Assembly: GCA_000309945.1 (NCBI GenBank)
Contig: CM001633.1
Location: 456,723-520,722 of the forward strand
Reading direction: 5' to 3'
DNA from: Leptolyngbyaceae cyanobacterium JSC-12
GTDB taxonomy: Bacteria; Cyanobacteriota; Cyanobacteriia; Leptolyngbyales; Leptolyngbyaceae
DNA: 64,000 bases
Shown here: in pieces, positions 45,450-63,795 of the stretch
Position numbering within the stretch: the stretch's first letter is position 1
How the letters are laid out: the number at the start of each line of letters is the position of its first letter
The notes under the pieces: generated by a model
Seen by the model: only the letters and a program-made list of their open reading frames with translations
Told to the model about the DNA's origin: nothing
Databases searched by the model: none
Program-made: the position numbers and the translations under genes

Positions 45450-45494
45450 AGCTGCTGAATCTGAGCCGGTAATAGAAAAGCGATCGCATCTGAA

Positions 45495-45630
45495 TCAATT
45501 ACACAATGCTTTACGAGTTGCTTCCAGATGTTGGTGTATCTGTTGTTTCATTTGCTGTTTCAACTGATCCACTCGATTTTGAGTTTCTTGTTGAATGATA
45601 CTGACCTGTTCCAGGGGGCGATCGTGCTAC
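45495..45630 (-). pseudogene. Possible coiled-coil gene remnant
   Basis: A stop-bounded minus-strand frame of about 45 codons encodes a helix (LEQVSIIQQETQNRVDQLKQ...HQHLEATRKAL) and ends at 45495. An in-frame TAG precedes it and no start codon is visible. It looks like the tail of a lost gene. No function recognised. Confidence 0.35.
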
Positions 45631-45797
45631 TTTTCCACCTCAGTTATCATAGATTAGCTTAAGTCTTAGATCATTTCTTAGGAAGATTCTGCCCATTGTC
45701 CCAACTGATCTTTAGCATTGATTAAAATAACCAACTTAATAATGTCTTCTATTCAGTTGTTTCACTAGTTTAAGTTAGCATTAACGCGAATTCAAAC

Positions 45798-46078
45798 TCA
45801 AGCCACTTTGAGTTGACGATGGGGGAGACGAAAGTTGTGCAGCCCGCACTTGGTCTCCATCACATCATCCACATTAATCCGTTCGATTCCGAAACTTAAT
45901 GCACTACGATGTGCCAGCATTTGATACCACCAATCCAGTGCTCAATCTCAACTCGTTCTTCTCCATCACAAATCGCTTTGTCTTGCATTCTGGACCCGTA
46001 GGGGTCACTCCAAAAAGAGGCTCTTTCTCCCTCTTTTGCTAATGATCCTATTGGTAACGCTACCCGATGTCAGAATAG
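45798..46078 (-). pseudogene. Degenerate transposase fragment (IS5-like C terminus)
   Basis: On the minus strand, one frame reads DGEERVEIEHWIGGIKCWH; a shift then gives RSALSFGIERINVDDVMETKCGLHNFRL before a stop at 45798. The pattern EHWIGGIK...VMETKCGLHNFRL is that of the C-terminal part of DDE_Tnp_4 transposases of IS5-type elements. A frameshift and a missing N-terminal part show it is dead. No inverted repeats found. Confidence 0.6.
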
Positions 46079-46247
46079 GTGTCATCGTCACAGGTAGCAA
46101 CCTTGATCTAAAACAAACTGGAAAGCCGTTTACCAAAGCCAGCACATCTGAAAAGCTAGAGCAGATATTTCCTTGTCGAGAAAAATCAAGCTAGTTCAAT
46201 TCTTTAAATTGATACGAATAAATTTCTCAATCCTCACATCCGCCCCC

Positions 46248-46276
46248 TAAAATCTAAAATCTAACATCTAAAATCT
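46248..46276 (+). repeat. STRR-like repeat before ureG
   Basis: Imperfect copies of ATCTAAA occur in tandem about 10 bp upstream of the ureG ATG, related to the aatctaaaatctgc units near 9590. Confidence 0.6.
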
Positions 46277-46285
46277 TCAGTTCTC

Positions 46286-47110: not shown

Positions 47111-47152
47111 GTATAGGTCGATACAAATAGCGAACAGTCGTAACTCTAATAT
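47111..47152 (+). promoter_or_regulatory. NtcA-type promoter of urtA
   Basis: GTA-TAGGTCGA-TAC (47111-47124) is a perfect GTA-N8-TAC. Exactly 22 nt further is TAATAT (47147-47152), fitting TAN3T. This is the canonical layout of NtcA-activated promoters in cyanobacteria. Predicted start near 47159, giving a leader of about 138 nt to urtA. Confidence 0.8.
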
Positions 47153-47296
47153 CACTCAGTATTGCAATTACGTTTCCATTAACTCCTCCACAGTCACTAC
47201 GGACTAACAGGTAAATAGCTCACGGAGCTGGTTAGTTTGCTTGCAATCATGGTGTGTGCGTGTGAGATTTACACAGGCTAAGGAGAACATACATAA

Positions 47297-48691
47297 ATGA
47301 AGTCGCGTATTCCCCCCATTATTCTTGGCGGTATTAGCCGTCGTAGATTCATTCAGTACGGCTCTCTGGCGGTTGGCTCTGGTATTTTGGCAGCCTGCTC
47401 AAGTGGTGGCACTGGCGAGTCTACCTCTTCTTCGCCTGGTGCGAGTCCTGTTGCCACAACGGCAGGAGGTGACGGAATTAAAGTTGGAGTAATGTACTCA
47501 ACCACAGGGACGATCGCGATCGTCGAAAAATCACTCCAAGATGCAACTTTCTTGGCGATCGAGCAAATCAATGATGGCAAAGGCCCGTGGTCGGGTAAGC
47601 AAGGGATCAAAGGCAAAAAGATCGAAATGGCAGTTGTCAACCCAGACTCTAACTGGGACTTGTATAACCAAATGGCAAAGCGTTTAATCGATGAAGACAA
47701 AGTAGCATGCGTTCTTGGATGCTACACATCCGCTAGCCGTAAATCAGTATTGCCTGTTTTCGAAGAAAAAGACAAGATTCTATACTATCCTGTCTATTAT
47801 GAAGGCAACGAGTGTAGCTCAAATGTGTTCTACACTGGGGCTGCTCCCAACCAACAAATTACCGACTCAATTCCCTACTGCGCCAAGAACTTTGGTAAGA
47901 AAGGTTTCTTCATCGGTTCAGACTACATTTATCCCAAAGAAAGTAACCGGATTGCCAAAGCTGAACTTGTGAAAGCAGGTGGTGAAGTCGTTGGAGATGA
48001 ATATGCTGCCCTGGGTACTACTGAGTTCATCACCATCATCAACAAAATTAAGCAGGCAAAACCTGATTTTGTTCTTAGCAACTTGGTGGGTGACAGTATC
48101 CCAGCCTTCTACAAGCAGTACAAAGATGCAGGTATTTCTCCAGAAGATATTCCCATTATGGCGTATCCGACCACTGAAGAGGAAGTGCTGGCAATGGGTC
48201 CTGAATTTGCTGAAGGTCACTACACCAGCTTTAACTACTTTCAATCAGTTGATACTCCTGAAAACAAAGCATTTGTGGAGCAATTCAAGGAGAAGTTTGG
48301 TAAAGACCGCGTAACAAATGGGGTAATGGAAGCTGCTTACTTCCAAACCTTCTTTATGGCACAAGCAATGGAAAAGTGCCTGGATGAAGGGAAGGAAATC
48401 AACACTGCAAATCTACGGGAAGCAACCCGCGGACAGATCTTTAAAGCTCCTCAGGGAACTGTGAAAGTAGATCCTGATAACTACCACACTTACCTTTACT
48501 CCCGAATTGGTAAATGGAAAGAAGATGGGCAGGCTGAAATCCTCTTCTCCACCGAAGCGGCTGTCAAACCGATTCCCTGGAGTCAGGCTCTCTATAAAGG
48601 ACGGATTTGCGTCCATCCCAAGCCAGATACTCGGACTAATCCGATTGTTGAAACGAAGAAAGAAGTCCCCGTTGAATTCTTGAAAGTGTAA
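47297..48691 (+). CDS. urtA: Urea ABC transporter substrate-binding protein UrtA
   Basis: A 464-residue binding protein. The N terminus has a twin-arginine motif (SRRRFIQYGS) followed by a hydrophobic stretch ending in a lipobox (LAAC), so it may be exported by Tat as a lipoprotein. The mature protein (KVGVMYSTTGTIAIVEKSLQDA onward) is the UrtA/branched-chain amino acid-binding type. It captures urea outside the inner membrane for UrtBC. It is the first urt gene, with an RBS AGGAGA 11 bp before the ATG, preceded by an NtcA-type promoter and followed by a strong hairpin before urtB. Confidence 0.96.
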   Translation: MKSRIPPIILGGISRRRFIQYGSLAVGSGILAACSSGGTGESTSSSPGASPVATTAGGDGIKVGVMYSTTGTIAIVEKSLQDATFLAIEQINDGKGPWSGKQGIKGKKIEMAVVNPDSNWDLYNQMAKRLIDEDKVACVLGCYTSASRKSVLPVFEEKDKILYYPVYYEGNECSSNVFYTGAAPNQQITDSIPYCAKNFGKKGFFIGSDYIYPKESNRIAKAELVKAGGEVVGDEYAALGTTEFITIINKIKQAKPDFVLSNLVGDSIPAFYKQYKDAGISPEDIPIMAYPTTEEEVLAMGPEFAEGHYTSFNYFQSVDTPENKAFVEQFKEKFGKDRVTNGVMEAAYFQTFFMAQAMEKCLDEGKEINTANLREATRGQIFKAPQGTVKVDPDNYHTYLYSRIGKWKEDGQAEILFSTEAAVKPIPWSQALYKGRICVHPKPDTRTNPIVETKKEVPVEFLKV

Positions 48692-48707
48692 AGAATTTCA
48701 CGATTAC

Positions 48708-48740
48708 ATCCCTGATCTTCATTATCAGTAGATCAGGGAT
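48708..48740 (+). other. Intercistronic stem-loop urtA-urtB
   Basis: A perfect 11-bp stem ATCCCTGATCT/AGATCAGGGAT with an 11-nt loop follows the urtA stop, followed by only a weak T run. It probably protects the urtA mRNA 3' end or causes partial termination, giving more binding protein than permease. Confidence 0.75.
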
Positions 48741-48777
48741 TTCTGTTCAGCATTTAGCGGAGAGGGGGAAGGGTTGT

Positions 48778-49728
48778 ATGGATTGGATAATTTCATTAGG
48801 ACAATTAGTAGCAGAGGCACCGCCTCCTAAGACGGTTGACTTTGTAACACTGCTCAACCAATTACTCAATGGGGTAGGGATTGTTGGTATTCTTCTGCTC
48901 ACTGGTTTGGGGTTGGCAATTACCTTTGGAGTCATGCGGATTATCAATTTGGCGCATGGCGAGTTCATTATGTTAGGTGCTTACACCACCTTTTTGCTTC
49001 AGAGCAATCTCAAAATGGATTTGCTGCTTACAATTCCATTTGCCTTTATTGTGACTGCAATTATCGGTGCTTTAATTGAGCTAACGATTATCCGACGGCT
49101 CTATGGTCGTCCTCTCGAGACATTGCTGGCAACTTGGGGGTTGAGTATCATTCTGCAAGGGATTGTGAAATTGATTTTCACTGCTCAATTGAAATATGTG
49201 AAAGCCCCCCCCTACATTCGAGGGAATTTGACCCTCTTCAAGACAGCAGAGGGGCAATCGGTTGAAATTTCTTACTATCGGCTGTTCATTATCTTTGTTG
49301 CCCTTGCTCTATTTGGCATTACAGCCTACCTGCTGTATATGACTTCGTTTGGTCGCCAGGTGAGAGCCGTGACTCAGAACCGCGATATGGCAAAGTGCCT
49401 GGGCATCAACACTGGCCTAGTGGATATGGCAACCTTTGCTTATGGTTGTGGGTTGGCAGGTGTTGCGGGTTCTGTGATTGCACCGCTGAAGAGTGTAGCT
49501 CCGCCAATGGGGCAGGATTATCTGGTTGATGCGTGGATGACGGTTGTAACAGGTGGGGTAGACAAGTTAGTTGGGGTATTAGCGGGTTCCGTCCTCATTG
49601 GTCAGGCGAATGCTGTTCTGGCTTACCTTTTGAATGATCCTACTGCGCGAGTCATTGTCCTGGCTGCGGTAATTGTCCTGATTCGCTACCGCCCTGAGGG
49701 GTTATTTACAGTCCAGAAGCGGGGCTAG
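48778..49728 (+). CDS. urtB: Urea ABC transporter permease UrtB
   Basis: A 316-residue membrane protein of the LivH type with about eight spans. The LITFGVMRIINLAHGEFIMLGAYTTF-type region (residues about 49-75) is diagnostic. The C terminus has GQDYLVDAWMTVVTGGVDKLVGVLAGSVLIG. It forms the channel with UrtC. Part of urtABCDE, with 86 bp to urtA and 51 bp to urtC. The ATG at 48778 follows the cluster's GGAGAGGGGGAAGGG-type purine tract. Confidence 0.94.
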   Translation: MDWIISLGQLVAEAPPPKTVDFVTLLNQLLNGVGIVGILLLTGLGLAITFGVMRIINLAHGEFIMLGAYTTFLLQSNLKMDLLLTIPFAFIVTAIIGALIELTIIRRLYGRPLETLLATWGLSIILQGIVKLIFTAQLKYVKAPPYIRGNLTLFKTAEGQSVEISYYRLFIIFVALALFGITAYLLYMTSFGRQVRAVTQNRDMAKCLGINTGLVDMATFAYGCGLAGVAGSVIAPLKSVAPPMGQDYLVDAWMTVVTGGVDKLVGVLAGSVLIGQANAVLAYLLNDPTARVIVLAAVIVLIRYRPEGLFTVQKRG

Positions 49729-49779
49729 TGATTGTTTTGATGGCACGGGTTAATCTTTTGGAGGTTAGGAGCAGCAACG

Positions 49780-51057
49780 ATGACACAGGTTATGGGGCGC
49801 CTTAGGCAGTCTGTTGTCCCGATGAATCTTTTGATTACGGGTGGACTGTTTTTACTAATTTTGATTGTTTTTCCGTTTGTGGCTGGGTCGTTTCAAACTA
49901 ATTTAATGGCGAAGTTATTGCTGTTTGGTGTGCTGGCAATGTCGCTGGATTTGGTTTGGGGATTTACCGGCATTTTGAGTTTTGCTCATGGGGTCTTCTT
50001 TGCTTTAGGTGGGTATGCGATGGCGTACTATCTAAAGCTGAATCTTTCGGCAACGGCTAACACCTATGGGGTCACACTGCCTGACTTTATGGTGTGGAAC
50101 GGTTTAAAGGAGTTGCCCTGGTTTATAGCCCCTTTGCAGATCTTTCCAATTGCCATGCTGGCAATGGTGGCAATCCCGGCTGGTTTTGCATACATTATTG
50201 GCTCGTTTATCTTCCGGTCTAAGGTGAGCGGTGTTTACATTACGATCATCACTCTGGCGATCGCATCTGCATTAACAACCTTCTTTGTGAGCCAGCAAGC
50301 TTACACAGGCGGCACAAATGGGATTACGGATGTTTCTAAACTGAGTTTATTTGGCTTAGTGATTCCTCCTATCGGATTATATTTCATCATCCTGGCGTTT
50401 GCTGTGTTTGTGATGATTGCAAGTTGGTGGTTAACTCAGTCAAACTTTGGGCTAATTTTGCGCTCAATTAAGGAAAACGAGAAGCGCATTGCCTATCTAG
50501 GGTATGACGTTGCCAGCTTCAAGATTTTTGTTTGGACACTTTCTGCGGGGATTGCAGGCATTGCAGGTGGCTTGTTTGTACCTTTGAACAAGTTCATTTC
50601 TCCGGTGTATCTGGCAGTCGCGTTCGGAACTCAGGTGGTAATTTGGGTGGCAGTGGGAGGTCGAGGAACCTTATTTGGTCCCTTCATTGCCGCCATTTTG
50701 CTGGGTCAAGTTCAAAACTATGCAGACCGAGTAACGCAGGATTGGCAGTTGTTTGTCGGTATTTTGCTGGTGGTGGTGGTGCTGTTCTTGCCAGATGGGT
50801 TGATGAGCTTACTGCCGCAGAAGTTCCGATTAAATGATTCAACTCGACTGATGGGGATTATAGGGTCTAGTTCTTCAGCGGGTTTTGTTCAGGCGAAATT
50901 ATTAGATTGGTATACGCCTCTCCGGGTAGTCTTCAATATGCTTGGGCAATTATTCGCTCCTGTGTTGCAAGCTGTGCTGGTGCCACGGTCGCGATCGCGT
51001 CAGCGTGCTAAATCTTCGTATTTGTTGCCTTCAAGCAGAGATAAAATGCTGAAGTAA
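49780..51057 (+). CDS. urtC: Urea ABC transporter permease UrtC
   Basis: A 425-residue LivM-type permease: FGVLAMSLDLVWGFTGILSFAHGVFFALGGYAMAYYL, GGTNGITDVSKL and the GTQVVIWVAVGGRGTLFGPFIAAILLG conserved loop. Eight to ten membrane segments. After the usual end near LFLPDGLMSLL (about residue 345) there is an unusual tail of about 75 residues, partly amphipathic and ending basic (PRSRSRQRAKSS), not expected in a typical UrtC. A GGAGGTTAGGAG ribosome site precedes the ATG. Confidence 0.94.
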   Translation: MTQVMGRLRQSVVPMNLLITGGLFLLILIVFPFVAGSFQTNLMAKLLLFGVLAMSLDLVWGFTGILSFAHGVFFALGGYAMAYYLKLNLSATANTYGVTLPDFMVWNGLKELPWFIAPLQIFPIAMLAMVAIPAGFAYIIGSFIFRSKVSGVYITIITLAIASALTTFFVSQQAYTGGTNGITDVSKLSLFGLVIPPIGLYFIILAFAVFVMIASWWLTQSNFGLILRSIKENEKRIAYLGYDVASFKIFVWTLSAGIAGIAGGLFVPLNKFISPVYLAVAFGTQVVIWVAVGGRGTLFGPFIAAILLGQVQNYADRVTQDWQLFVGILLVVVVLFLPDGLMSLLPQKFRLNDSTRLMGIIGSSSSAGFVQAKLLDWYTPLRVVFNMLGQLFAPVLQAVLVPRSRSRQRAKSSYLLPSSRDKMLK

Positions 51058-51227
51058 CCAAGTGTTCAAGTTGTTTGTTGAGTCCACCACTATTGAGCAT
51101 TCAAGTTGAGCATTCAATTCGTTACAGCTTTTCTTTAGATTCACTGGAGATTCGCTAATTAGGTCACAAAACGACTCTGTTCGGTGGTGCTAGTGTTAAT
51201 TAGTTTGAATTGGGAAGGGTTAGTTTC

Positions 51228-52028
51228 ATGGAAGTCACTTCATCTGTCAATGAATTAGGGGCAGAGTCGTCTACAACTCCCGTTTTGTCGGTCAGACAAG
51301 TCAAAGTAGTGTTTTCGGGCTTTAAAGCACTAAAGGGAGTAGACCTGGATGTGGGTGACCGAGAGATTGTGACCATTATTGGACCAAACGGGGCTGGAAA
51401 AAGTACCTTGCTGGATGCGATCGTAGGCAAGTCACCCGTTGCCTCCGGACACGTTTACTTTCATGGCAAAGACATCACCAACAAAAGTCCCTATACAATT
51501 TCTCGCATGGGAATCGGGCGTAAGTTTCAGAACCCAAATGTCTACAATGAGCTGACAGTCTTTGAGAATATGTTGTTGGCACTCAAAGGTGCGCATGGAG
51601 TTCTGGACTCGATTAAATCGCGGTTGACTCGTGCTAAGAAAGAAAAAATTGAGGATGTGCTAGACCGAGTTGGGTTGCTCGATAAAGCTTTTACTCCCGT
51701 CTCCTCCCTATCTCATGGGCAAAAGCAATGGGTTGAAATCGGCATGGTGCTTGCCCAAGACCCGACCCTGGTTTTATTGGATGAACCAACGGCGGGGATG
51801 ACTCCTGATGAAACCCATGCCACAGGAGAGATTATCAAGACGATCGCGCAAGGTCACTCACTGGTTGTGATTGAGCACGATATGGAATTTGTCAAACAGA
51901 TCGCCCAACGGATTGTGGTATTGCACCAGGGCGAAAAACTTACCGAAGGTACGGTGAGTGAAGTTCAGTCTAACCCAGAAGTTATTGAGGTGTACTTAGG
52001 TCGTGAAAGAATCGATACCGCTGCTTGA
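51228..52028 (+). CDS. urtD: Urea ABC transporter ATP-binding protein UrtD
   Basis: About 266 residues. ABC ATPase of the LivG type: Walker A IGPNGAGKSTLLDAI, signature LSHGQKQWVEIGM, Walker B LVLLDEPTAGMTPDE and switch His in VVIEHDMEF. It energises urea import together with UrtE. The ATG at 51228 is chosen over an upstream TTG (51210). A 150-bp gap separates it from urtC. Its 3' end overlaps urtE by 26 bp, so the two ATPases are translationally coupled. Confidence 0.95.
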   Translation: MEVTSSVNELGAESSTTPVLSVRQVKVVFSGFKALKGVDLDVGDREIVTIIGPNGAGKSTLLDAIVGKSPVASGHVYFHGKDITNKSPYTISRMGIGRKFQNPNVYNELTVFENMLLALKGAHGVLDSIKSRLTRAKKEKIEDVLDRVGLLDKAFTPVSSLSHGQKQWVEIGMVLAQDPTLVLLDEPTAGMTPDETHATGEIIKTIAQGHSLVVIEHDMEFVKQIAQRIVVLHQGEKLTEGTVSEVQSNPEVIEVYLGRERIDTAA

Positions 52029-52716
52029 ATTATCCGATGTTACCGTTGCCTATGACCAGACTCCGGTGTTGTTTGGCATTAATATGGCAATTAACAAGGG
52101 TGAAATTGCCTGTCTATTAGGACGTAACGGTGTTGGGAAAACAACGCTTCTTCGGACTGTGATTGGGCTGACGAAGGTCATGTCTGGCGGAATTGTATTT
52201 GATGCAGATGAGATTACAAAAGTACCGACCTATAAACGGGCACGGTACGGCATTGCTTACATTCCTCAGGGACGTGAGATCATTCCTTATTTGTCAGTTT
52301 TAGAAAATCTGAAATTGGGAATGACTGCGAATAAACAAAAGTTGCGAAAGATTCCAGATGAAATTTTTGAGTTCTTTCCTATGCTAAAGCAACACCTCAG
52401 TCGGCAGGGGGGGTTGTTGAGCGGTGGACAGCAGCAACAATTGGCGATCGCACGAGGACTCTTATCTAATCCACAAATCATGTTGTTAGATGAACCCACT
52501 GAAGGAATTCAACCTTCAATTGTGCAAGAGATTGAAGCAACCCTAAAACGTATCAATCGAGAAAAAGGAATCACCATCTTAGTGGTTGAACAAAAGATCG
52601 ATTTTGCTCGGCAGCTTGCTCAGAAGTTCTTCATGATGCAGAAGGGTGCGATCGTTGCCAGCGGCAGCACCGATGAGTTAACCGATTCGCTAGTACATCG
52701 CTATCTTGCTGTTTAG
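52003..52716 (+). CDS. urtE: Urea ABC transporter ATP-binding protein UrtE
   Basis: A 237-residue LivF-type ABC ATPase: Walker A LLGRNGVGKTTLLRT, LSGGQQQQLAIARGLL, IMLLDEPTEGIQPSI and VVEQKIDFA. Starts at GTG inside urtD (26-bp overlap). It pairs with UrtD on the cytoplasmic face. It ends the operon; a terminator follows at 52786. Confidence 0.95.
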   Translation: MKESIPLLELSDVTVAYDQTPVLFGINMAINKGEIACLLGRNGVGKTTLLRTVIGLTKVMSGGIVFDADEITKVPTYKRARYGIAYIPQGREIIPYLSVLENLKLGMTANKQKLRKIPDEIFEFFPMLKQHLSRQGGLLSGGQQQQLAIARGLLSNPQIMLLDEPTEGIQPSIVQEIEATLKRINREKGITILVVEQKIDFARQLAQKFFMMQKGAIVASGSTDELTDSLVHRYLAV

Positions 52717-52785
52717 AGCCTGGTTATAATGCCATTCAAGCTTAGTAGCATTTGTTAGCTATTTAATTGGATAGTCATTATTAGT

Positions 52786-52820
52786 GCGTCTGAAGAAACA
52801 ATTCAGCTTCAGACGCTTTT
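52786..52820 (+). terminator. Terminator of the urt operon
   Basis: A perfect 10-bp stem GCGTCTGAAG/CTTCAGACGC with an 11-nt loop, followed by TTTT, 70 bp after urtE. Confidence 0.85.
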
Positions 52821-52855
52821 CAGTTTGCTACAAATGAGGTGAGAATACTAAAGAA

Positions 52856-52881
52856 AAACTCATGTATTGCTACATGAGTTT
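52856..52881 (-). terminator. Terminator of amiE
   Basis: A perfect 11-bp stem AAACTCATGTA/TACATGAGTTT with a 4-nt loop. Read on the minus strand it is followed by TTTTTCTTT, just past the amiE stop, and so faces the urt terminator. Confidence 0.88.
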
Positions 52882-52922
52882 ATCGGGATGCGAGACTTGA
52901 AACAAGTTAGTTGTTAGTTTAT

Positions 52923-54005
52923 TTAGTTATTAAGCAAAATAGCTTCCTTTTCCTTCATGACCAAAGGCGTTTCTGCCAACTTTTCGGTAGGTAAACCTTC
53001 AATTGGGCATTCCTTCGTACCTACTGTTTCGCGAGTAATCTCTTCCACCTGTTTTTTCACCTTCATAGGGTCAAGCACCCAATTGCGGTAAAACTCGTAA
53101 GGACATTCCTGTACACCCTCTGCGCCCTCGCCGGAATTGATTTTGCCCGTGTAGCCCCGGTGCAGCAGCTTGAACAGGTGATTTTGCGATTGTGCGTTCT
53201 TGCGAAAGTCGCGAATAGCAAACTTCGAAAGAGTAGCGTATTGAATGCCGTACTCTTCCTCGCCGCATTCGCCCAAGGTTCGACCATCAAATCCCACGAT
53301 CGCAGAATGACCGAAATAGCTATAAACCCCATCGAATCCAGAAGCATTGGCAACAGCAACATACACATTATTCATCCATGCCATTGCTTTAGACACCATA
53401 ATTTGCTGCTCTTTAGCGGGGTACATATATCCCTGGCAACGAACAATCAGTTCAGCCCCCTTCATAGCGCAGTCACGCCAAATTTCGGGATAGTTCCCGT
53501 CATCGCAGATAATCAGGCTCATCTTTAAGCCTTTCGGCCCGTCAGAAACATAGGTGCAACCACCAGGATACCAACCTTCAATCGGGCACCAGGGCATAAT
53601 CTTGCGGTAACGCTGCACAATCTCACCCTGATCATTCATCAAGATAAGCGTATTGTAGGGAACTTTGTTGGGGTGATCTTCATGCTTCTCACCTGTGAGA
53701 GAAAACACCCCCCAAACCCGATTCCGAATGCACGCCTGAGCAAAAATTTCAGTTTCTGGACCTGGAATATCAGAAGCCGTCTCCATCATTTCCTGATGGT
53801 CATACATGATTCCGTGGGTAGAGTATTCCGGGAAGACAACCAGATCCATCCCTGGCAACCCCACCTTCATCCCATCAATCATTGATGCAATCTTTTTGCA
53901 GTTTTCAATAACTTCTGCACGAGTGTGAAGGCGTGGCATTTTATAGTTGACGACCGCAACTCCAACGGCGTCTTCACTGGATGAAATATCACCATGATAA
54001 GCCAT
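52923..54005 (-). CDS. amiE: Aliphatic amidase AmiE
   Basis: A 360-residue nitrilase-superfamily amidase, very like AmiE of Pseudomonas from the N terminus ([20 protein letters not shown]) onward. The catalytic Glu is in [10 protein letters not shown], Lys in [15 protein letters not shown] (with a second Glu) and Cys in [11 protein letters not shown] (C166 in AmiE numbering). It hydrolyses short aliphatic amides to ammonia and acids. AmiF formamidases are close relatives, but FmdA next door is the more obvious formamidase. Preceded on its strand by an NtcA-type promoter and followed by a terminator. Cytosolic. Confidence 0.93.
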
Positions 54006-54203
54006 GACTTTCTCCTAAAGCTGTGCTGTCTCAAATCCTCAAAAACTAAGACACAATGGACGACCTTATAGAATTCCGTCCATCATCCTATGATTAATCT
54101 GATTAATCGCTCCACTGCAAGATAACTTCTCAATTTGTTTTCAGCATTGAGTATTTCCAGCATTGAATAAGAATATATGCAGTGTTCAATACGACTGCAA
54201 TCC

Positions 54204-54245
54204 AGTCTATCGGCTTGGTGTAGCCGAGCATGTAACATTCAATAC
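54204..54245 (-). promoter_or_regulatory. NtcA-type promoter of amiE
   Basis: On the minus strand GTA-TTGAATGT-TAC (54245-54232) is followed 22 nt later by TAGACT (54209-54204), which fits TAN3T. The predicted start is about 195 nt before the amiE ATG. The site also lies past the fmdB stop. Confidence 0.75.
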
Positions 54246-54274
54246 AGTTCTTCAGGAAATCGTTGGCGCGTGAT

Positions 54275-54544
54275 TTAGTGATTTAACATCCAGGGACGCC
54301 CACAGGACTGTGCTTGAAACTTTGGCTTTGCAGGTTCGCGATCGCGGGGCTTAGTCATCAAGTCAGGCTCAGGCGTACTTTTGCGAAGTGGCAGGCTACT
54401 TGACAGACTAATAGCAGGGGCTGAAAAAATGCGTCGTCCAGGCAACTGGCAAGTTGGGCAAAATGCTGGATTGCTTGATTCTGCCATTGTTCGCCACTGT
54501 TCAAACACACCACAGGCACTGCATCGAAACTCATAAATCGGCAT
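54275..54544 (-). CDS. fmdB: FmdB-type zinc-ribbon protein
   Basis: About 89 residues. MPIYEFRCSACGVFEQW and FCPTCQLPGRRIF form the FmdB/CxxC zinc ribbon (two CxxC pairs). The tail is Ser/Arg-rich and disordered. FmdB was named as a regulator of formamidase genes and often neighbours fmdA, as here (122 bp downstream of it). The ATG at 54544 starts the motif; upstream codons are not conserved. Regulatory function is inferred from the family name and neighbourhood. Confidence 0.85.
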   Translation of the reverse strand: MPIYEFRCSACGVFEQWRTMAESSNPAFCPTCQLPGRRIFSAPAISLSSSLPLRKSTPEPDLMTKPRDREPAKPKFQAQSCGRPWMLNH

Positions 54545-54666
54545 GTATAAACCTCCAGTCAAATTATCATCTGAACTATGGAAAGTTCTGAGTTTGAACC
54601 TTGAAATGCCCAAACCCAGAACATCGCATCATCACGTTGTAAACCCAATCATCTGCTGCGATCGCA

Positions 54667-55872
54667 TTAAGTTGGCAGGATATCCATATCAAAGATTTCA
54701 GTTGGAATAGCTACCGTACAGCAAGCATTTGGAATATCCACAATGCCACTAACACGCCCCTCAACTGGAGCACAACTGAGCAATAGATAGGCCTGTTCAC
54801 CCGTAAAACCAAACTTTTTCAAATATTCAATCGCATTCAAGCAAGCACGACGATAAGCAATATGAACATCCATAAAGTATTGCTTGCCTGTATATTCATC
54901 CACTGAGATCCCTTCAAACACCAGGTATTCAGAGTAGCGTGGCTCCACAGGACCAGGTTTGAAAATTGGATTCGTCAAGCCATACTTCTCCACGCCATCT
55001 TTGATGATATCTACATGTAGATCGATGTAACCTGACATTTCGATCGCGCCACAGAACGAGATTTCGCCATCCCCCTGAGAAAAGTGGATATCGCCCATCG
55101 ACAGCTTGGCACCTTCTACATAAACAGGAAAATAAATCCGTGTTCCACGAGAAAGGTTCTTGATATCGCAGTTGCCACCATGTTCACGCGGGGGCACAGT
55201 CCGAGCCGCTTCCGCTGCAACGCGCTCATATTCCGATTTCGGCAAAGTTCCCAGAATTGCATTTGTAGGATTCGGCAATGCGGCTAGAACGGGAACATTA
55301 CCATTCAACCCTGCCCCGTAGGTACGCAAATCCGGCTGAGTCGCCATCAATTCAGTTTCGCGTTTGTTCCAGGTTGCTAATAACTCATGGGATGGTGCAC
55401 ACCCAATCAACCCCGGGTGAGTAATACCAGCAAACCGCACATTGGGAATATGCCGAGATGTAGTGTAAATGCCTTGAAAATCCCAAATTGCTTTTGCTGG
55501 TTTCGGGAAATGATCTGTTAAAAAACCGCCCCCATTCTCTTTCGCAAAGATTCCGGTAAAGCCCCACTCATCGCCTTGCAAAGCACCAATGTCCAGTAAA
55601 TCAACCACCAAAATATCACCGGGCTGTGCTCCGTTTACCCAAATTGGACCGCTAAGAACATGAACTACAGTCAGGTCAACATCACGGATGTCATCAGGAT
55701 TGTCATTATTTTTTATTTGCCCATCTGTCCAGTCCTTACACTCAATCCGAAATACTTCACCAGGATTGACTGAAACAACAGCTGGAATATCGGGGTGCCA
55801 ACGGTTGTGACCAGGCAATTCCTGTTGATCCATTGGCTTGGTCAAGTCAACCTTAAAAAGCGTTTTGGGCAT
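54667..55872 (-). CDS. fmdA: Formamidase FmdA (acetamidase/formamidase family)
   Basis: A 401-residue member of the FmdA/AmdA family: LPGHNRWHPDIPAV at the start, PGDILVVDLLDIGAL, GLIGCAPSHELL, REHGGNCDIKNLSRG and SMGDIHFSQGDGEISFCGAIE. The enzymes hydrolyse formamide to formate and ammonia and are unrelated in fold to AmiE. It heads the minus-strand set fmdA-fmdB-amiE, with its own NtcA-type promoter and a leader hairpin upstream. Cytosolic, normal length. Confidence 0.93.
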   Translation of the reverse strand: MPKTLFKVDLTKPMDQQELPGHNRWHPDIPAVVSVNPGEVFRIECKDWTDGQIKNNDNPDDIRDVDLTVVHVLSGPIWVNGAQPGDILVVDLLDIGALQGDEWGFTGIFAKENGGGFLTDHFPKPAKAIWDFQGIYTTSRHIPNVRFAGITHPGLIGCAPSHELLATWNKRETELMATQPDLRTYGAGLNGNVPVLAALPNPTNAILGTLPKSEYERVAAEAARTVPPREHGGNCDIKNLSRGTRIYFPVYVEGAKLSMGDIHFSQGDGEISFCGAIEMSGYIDLHVDIIKDGVEKYGLTNPIFKPGPVEPRYSEYLVFEGISVDEYTGKQYFMDVHIAYRRACLNAIEYLKKFGFTGEQAYLLLSCAPVEGRVSGIVDIPNACCTVAIPTEIFDMDILPT

Positions 55873-56032
55873 ACAATCCTCCTACTGACCTACTTTGTGG
55901 CAAACACCTCCGACACGGCTCTTGAAGTGAGGAGCCGCAAGCAATGCAGCGAGAGAGTAACTTACCTCGCATTTTGGGAAAACCAACACTACTTGCCCTG
56001 CAAGAAATTGCAACAAGACCTACCGGGGCATT

Positions 56033-56072
56033 GATATCTGCCTGTGAACACACATTCAACAGAGCAGATATC
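56033..56072 (-). promoter_or_regulatory. Stem-loop at the 5' end of the fmdA leader
   Basis: A perfect 9-bp inverted repeat (GATATCTGC at 56033-56041, GCAGATATC at 56064-56072) with a 22-nt loop. The predicted fmdA transcription start is near 56073, so the hairpin would form at the extreme 5' end of the mRNA. A second, smaller stem (CGGCTC/GAGCCG) is near 55916. Confidence 0.5.
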
Positions 56073-56078
56073 GCTTAG

Positions 56079-56121
56079 ACTCTAGATGTTAAACCTCAGC
56101 ATAATCTGTAGTTTTGACTAC
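56079..56121 (-). promoter_or_regulatory. NtcA-type promoter of fmdA
   Basis: GTA-GTTTTGAC-TAC (56108-56121; palindromic ends) is followed on the minus strand, after 23 nt, by TAGAGT (56084-56079), fitting TAN3T. This lies about 200 bp before the fmdA start. The remainder of the 55873-56282 gap holds no gene. Confidence 0.7.
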
Positions 56122-63622: not shown

Positions 63623-63795
63623 AACGTTTTGCAAATGAAAGAGTACGTACAATCACTTACGACCTCACGAGATAATATTAAGGCGATCCCTATAAACCCG
63701 GATGTGTCCAATCCGAACACTCAGTGAATCTTCTTAGAAACTTCATAAAGTTCTTTAAATTTGAATTTCTTGCAAAGAAAATTTACCTAGTGGGC

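Follow-up and report, generated by a model that had tools for sequence, protein, structure and literature searches.

The urea transporter and amidase locus

The stretch of DNA analysed here, referred to below as the window, is a 64-kb segment (positions 456723–520722) of the 5.53-Mb single-contig genome of the Leptolyngbyaceae cyanobacterium JSC-12. Its plus strand carries ureG and the urea transporter operon urtABCDE, and its minus strand genes for an aliphatic amidase (amiE), a small zinc-ribbon protein of the fmdB type, and a formamidase (fmdA). Three of these genes, urtA, amiE, and fmdA, are preceded by sequences that look like canonical class II promoters of the nitrogen regulator NtcA, and these promoters are the subject of this section.

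The initial annotation had described three GTA-N8-TAC cores, each followed in the direction of its gene by a TAN3T box after 22 or 23 nt, and on re-examination all three cores are exact matches with the spacing and orientation given. The urtA site is GTATAGGTCGATAC (47111–47124, plus strand), with a TAATAT box 22 nt past the core (47147–47152) and a predicted start at about 47159. Read on the minus strand, the amiE site is GTATTGAATGTTAC (54232–54245), followed after 22 nt by TAGACT (54204–54209; predicted start ~54197), and the fmdA site is GTAGTCAAAACTAC (56108–56121), followed after 23 nt by TAGAGT (56079–56084; predicted start ~56073). The predicted leaders are about 138 nt (urtA), 192 nt (amiE), and 201 nt (fmdA) long.

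Gene identities proposed earlier from the open reading frames (ORFs) alone for UrtA–E, the aliphatic amidase, and the formamidase held up in profile searches. For UrtA (47297–48691, plus strand; substrate-binding protein of the urea ABC transporter; PF13433) the best NCBIfam model, TIGR03407, scores 424.6 bits, under its cut-off of 492.75, so the name rests on family and operon context. The remaining transporter genes, urtBCDE (48778–52716, plus strand), match TIGR03409, TIGR03408, TIGR03411, and TIGR03410, each above cut-off. On the minus strand, AmiE, of the nitrilase superfamily (52923–54005), matches NF009802 at 705.8 bits (cut-off 427); the fmdB-type gene between fmdA and amiE (54275–54547) matches TIGR02605 at 59 bits (cut-off 31.3); and FmdA, of the acetamidase/formamidase family (54667–55872; PF03069), matches NF045496 at 681.3 bits (cut-off 500). 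The closest relatives of this FmdA are cyanobacterial. NtcA itself is encoded in the genome, with a match to TIGR03697 of 393 bits against a cut-off of 245.

Frequency of the motif in the genome

The GTA-N8-TAC core occurs 13 times in the window, where dinucleotide shuffles give an expectation of 5.2. A 1.2-Mb background drawn from this genome as 60 stretches of 20 kb (22% of the total) contains 141 cores, equivalent to 7.5 per 64 kb; an earlier estimate of about 16 chance cores per 64 kb was thus too high. Nine of the 13 lie within ORFs, one of them with a TAN3T box at 24 nt, and a tenth, at 63647, is intergenic by the ORF list with no TAN3T between 15 and 31 nt. Only the urtA, amiE, and fmdA cores combine an intergenic position with a −10 box 22 or 23 nt away.

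When the full motif is defined as a core, 22 or 23 nt, and TAN3T on either strand, there are five occurrences in the 1.2-Mb background (0.27 per 64 kb) vs. three in the window. Two of the five are in ORFs and three are intergenic, two of the latter with an ORF start no more than 400 nt downstream; all three motifs in the window are of this last kind. One of the two (stretch L175) precedes an ORF of the nitrite/sulfite reductase type, which can be read as nirA, its PF03460 matches also being compatible with a sulfite reductase; the other precedes an ORF that, as read from its sequence, resembles a type 2 NADH dehydrogenase. Core-to-box spacings in the background show no clear peak at 22 nt (four at 22, one at 23, mean 3.6 per position). 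The Poisson probability of at least three full motifs in 64 kb is 0.0026 relative to all background sites and 0.00019 relative to the intergenic kind, but these values flatter the window because it was chosen for having the sites. Conservation in other genomes provides a cleaner test, with a strongly positive outcome.

Conservation upstream of orthologous genes

Upstream regions of orthologs were collected from genome contigs and further relatives, with duplicates removed. A conserved full site was counted when core and box were separated by 21–24 nt and lay within 600 nt upstream, and counts were compared with 300 rounds of shuffling. The genes of the window itself were left out, as was one fmdA locus (L128) whose match begins at the locus edge, which makes its upstream slice meaningless. 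Full sites were found at 12 of 25 other urtA loci (shuffle mean 0.25, maximum 3), at 21 of 29 for amiE (0.12, maximum 1), and at 16 of 57 for fmdA (0.44, maximum 4). The spacings peak sharply at 22 nt, with 12 sites for urtA, 21 for amiE, and 10 for fmdA, which has six more at 23 nt. In an alignment of the nine closest urtA loci, including that of the window, TTTGTATA-N5-ATACAAAT is kept and CTAATATCAC is invariant while the flanks vary. Several sites at the closest fmdA loci are GTG-N8-TAC, one mismatch away from the core, with the spacing still 22 nt.

A wider set of fmdA loci could be divided by lineage. Within 500 nt upstream, the core is present in 22 of the 44 loci assigned to cyanobacteria (shuffle mean 2.5, maximum 7) vs. 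three of 36 from other bacteria, a set that differs in base composition and has its own shuffle mean of 0.86. Core plus −10 box is found in nine of the 44 and none of the 36. One locus, L046, is labeled Candidatus Gracilibacteria and was grouped as cyanobacterial because of the 82% identity of its FmdA; lacking a site, it counts against the cyanobacterial total.

Interpretation and alternative explanations

The promoters of urtABCDE, fmdA-fmdB, and amiE are, very probably, three canonical class II promoters activated by NtcA; the reading of them as NtcA promoters in the initial annotation is supported. They would work in the usual manner: as nitrogen runs short and 2-oxoglutarate rises, NtcA would bind the GTAN8TAC sites, centered about 41.5 nt upstream of each start, and contact RNA polymerase at promoters with a TAN3T −10 box, activating genes for urea import (urtABCDE), a formamidase (fmdA-fmdB), and an aliphatic amidase (amiE). 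Urea entering through UrtABCDE would go to urease, and formamide and short amides would be cut by FmdA and AmiE, yielding ammonium. Because each begins with an NtcA-type switch that has been kept in many related species, the urea and amide genes are probably switched on together in nitrogen shortage. Here we infer NtcA binding, activation, the start sites, and the ammonium response.

Several observations weigh against this interpretation. No exact core was found within 600 nt upstream in 29 of 57 fmdA, 11 of 25 urtA, and five of 29 amiE regions; some of these have a one-mismatch GTN10AC at the same spacing, and others have none. The locus counts are not independent events, since many of the relatives are close kin. 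Finally, a full canonical site is absent from the 900 nt that precede the family match at ntcA, three amt, two PII-type, and three nblA loci of the same genome, so the canonical layout is not universal among nitrogen genes. Upstream cores occur at ntcA, one amt, and two nblA loci, with no box at the right distance; in the stretch covered, the remaining amt, PII-type, and nblA loci show no exact core.

Three other explanations were considered. Bare cores are not rare at the rate observed in the background, and the sites were chosen after the genes had been seen, so the combination of three cores and boxes could be a coincidence, picked out for preceding nitrogen genes. The rarity of the full motif and, above all, the fact that orthologous genes keep site and spacing amid diverging flanks make this highly improbable. 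The sites might instead belong to another CRP-family protein. Operators of this family may resemble each other, and the NtcA model has six additional, weaker matches in the genome. GTAN8TAC followed by TAN3T is, on the other hand, the layout published for NtcA (PMC3898017), it is shared in this genome by glnA and the nirA-type gene, and the genes concerned are nitrogen-scavenging ones, all of which leaves a different CRP-family regulator improbable.

It is also conceivable that NtcA binds but does not exert the main control at one of the sites, amiE being expressed mostly by read-through from the fmdA promoter. The arrangement lends itself to this, as fmdA, fmdB, and amiE are collinear on one strand and 29 nt separate the fmdB stop codon from the amiE site. 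Conservation of that site at 21 of 29 other loci, including some in genomes with a different gene before amiE, makes predominant read-through rather unlikely, though less so than the two preceding alternatives.

Relation to the wider NtcA regulon

The glnA gene of this genome has the site GTAATTTGCTATAC, with TAN3T at 22 nt. The nirA-type site is that of stretch L175; the six loci retrieved with the nitrite/sulfite reductase family (L236–L241) begin inside genes and are uninformative. Since glnA and the nirA-type gene share the layout, a separate local regulon, as first proposed for the urea and amide genes, was rejected. What stands of that proposal is that these genes have NtcA-type promoters, conserved together with their spacing; they appear as part of a wider NtcA regulon rather than as a regulon of their own.

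Canonical NtcA promoters, with GTAN8TAC centered near −41.5 and a TAN3T box, have been described for urtA, nirA, ntcB, and glnA in a paper that also cites previous work predicting cyanobacterial NtcA sites computationally (PMC3898017). The promoters of the window resemble these in their core, their −10 box, the nitrogen-scavenging character of their genes, and the presence of an encoded NtcA; they differ in that their starts and NtcA binding are predicted from sequence. A further difference is that amiE and fmdA are not named as targets in the main text of that paper, where neither “amidase” nor “formamid” occurs. In nitrogen-limited Arthrospira sp. PCC 8005, a cyanobacterial formamidase of the same FmdA type is up-regulated at the protein and/or mRNA level, in an account that, in the portion available, names no NtcA site or promoter for it (PMC4509649). 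Radiation is reported to repress fmdA together with other nitrogen genes (PMC8400943). A literature search of partial coverage turned up no recognizable description of an NtcA promoter for amiE or fmdA. The layout is thus expected for urtA and, provisionally, apparently new for amiE and fmdA.

The three predicted NtcA-type promoters are a fresh instance of a well-known kind, and with their predicted starts they are directly testable. By comparative evidence across cyanobacteria, they add the breakdown of short amides by formamidase and aliphatic amidase to urea uptake within the NtcA regulon. The additional elements at amiE and fmdA considered next point to a possible second layer of control on top of the global nitrogen response.

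A palindrome and a candidate regulator at amiE

Matches to amiE were found in 45 genomes, and 30 loci were read. In 15 of these (L096 and L098–L111; the window is not among them) an 18-bp palindrome, TAGTTAAN4TTAACTA, lies just upstream of the amiE NtcA site. This count allows two mismatches and uses longer upstream stretches; the strict palindrome is present in nine of the 30. For five loci (L113–L117) the amiE start was not found by pattern, and a scan of the whole locus detected no palindrome. The distance from palindrome to NtcA site, center to center, is 19–22 bp in 14 cases and 30 bp in one; the NtcA core at L101 carries a single mismatch. Over 1.2 Mb, the window genome has seven matches with up to two mismatches and no exact ones; the window itself has four, all with three mismatches and none near the amiE promoter.

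The inner bases of the NtcA site follow an additional pattern. In 11 of the 15 loci with the palindrome (L096, L098, L102, and L104–L111) the eight bases inside the core are identical, giving GTAAAACTAGATAC, in leaders that have otherwise diverged. This identity is not accounted for by NtcA alone.

At nine of ten palindrome-bearing loci inspected (L102 being the exception), an ORF upstream of amiE reads as a receiver domain joined to a MarR-type domain, or as a cut part of such a protein, and Pfam models recognize both domains in all three of the regulators scanned. A search of 388 genomes, with E values up to 1e-60, found matches to this receiver-MarR protein in 22. All 15 genomes with the palindrome are included, 12 with matches over both domains and three (G089, G113, G318) over one part, vs. 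three of the 15 amiE genomes without it, where the match covers both domains in G276 and the receiver half in G270 and G304. The co-occurrence gives a Fisher P of 1.1e-5 when any match is counted and kinship is ignored. Two genomes have the palindrome with the regulator located elsewhere: in G002 the regulator is 17 kb from amiE and the palindrome is kept, and in G027 another gene lies upstream of amiE, with the regulator not adjacent and the palindrome again retained. In G056, a relative of both, the regulator and amiE are on short separate contigs. Four genomes (G073, G145, G161, G242) have a regulator match, but no amiE match and no palindrome at the regulator locus, so the receiver-MarR protein must have other roles there. 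Neither the window genome nor its nearest relative, G105, has a regulator match at 1e-60 or the palindrome.

From this distribution we infer that the palindrome is the operator of the receiver-MarR fusion protein, a putative regulator-operator pair concrete enough to test. A more general proposal would be that two inputs control the use of amides in cyanobacteria, with the palindrome and receiver-MarR protein acting beside NtcA, and that the lineage of the window retains NtcA alone at amiE. We consider the chances of this to be about even, a slightly lower estimate than the one first made, because of the four genomes with a regulator and no amiE match and because one unlinked case is undecidable.

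The amiE leader of the window (54010–54200) exceeds that of the nearest relative by about 170 nt, with the NtcA site at −240 rather than −71; a large part of it may be an insertion or dispensable.

A dyad in the fmdA leader

A different element is found downstream of the predicted fmdA start, where a conserved dyad, TGAATGTGTGTTCA (TGAAN6TTCA; 56045–56058, minus strand), occupies approximately +15 to +28. It is the only occurrence in the window, vs. 2.4 expected. Of 58 regions upstream of fmdA, 15 contain TGAAN6TTCA (shuffle mean 1.5, maximum 5); in 11 of these, largely close kin, its position downstream of the −10 box is the same. The copies in L022, L047, and L049 look like chance matches, and L035 is doubtful.

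In the window, the 40 nt around the dyad that begin at the predicted start (56033–56072, minus strand) are predicted to form a hairpin of −21.0 kcal/mol (z −4.85 relative to mononucleotide shuffles). Covariation was assessed in 11 of the 15 stretches, omitting L163 (identical to L018) and L035, L049, and L022 (other promoter context), and including L023, with an altered form of the dyad, TGAGTACCGACTCA. Neither measure exceeded shuffles in these 11 sequences: 77 of 500 reached the observed pairing and 65 of 500 the covariation score. Strong as the hairpin of the window is, an RNA element is for this reason not claimed. The dyad may be bound by a second regulator or may form a 5′ stem-loop. No riboswitch or other known RNA was recognized in the leaders, with no Rfam match up to E = 1 between 46800 and 56500.

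A single regulator acting at both the amiE palindrome and the fmdA dyad was also considered and rejected. TGAAN6TTCA is absent from all 26 urtA and all 30 amiE regions, and the strict TAGTTAA palindrome from all 59 fmdA and all 26 urtA regions. One copy of TAGTTAAN4TTAACTA with two mismatches is found before fmdA, in L107.

Loci with fmdA directly upstream of urtA

In eight of the 26 urtA loci, that of the window included in the total, the gene immediately before urtA is fmdA, on the same strand and 321–589 nt away (L013, L017, L019, L020, L022, and L127–L129). None of these eight has a full site before urtA, vs. 13 of the other 18, again including that of the window (Fisher P 0.0016, ignoring kinship). 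A full site is instead found before fmdA in three of the eight: L017, L107, and L109, the last two being from the genomes of L128 and L127, respectively. In L022 the core upstream of fmdA has its box at 25 nt, and no site was found before fmdA in L013, L019, L020, or L165 (from the same genome as L129). The adjacency links formamidase with the urea transporter, and its recurrence in eight loci would fit a transporter, Urt, that also carries amides.

At the other end of the urea genes, ureG adjoins urtA, and the approximately 840 bp upstream of ureG (45450–46285) contain no ORF of 60 or more amino acids; this is possibly decayed sequence.

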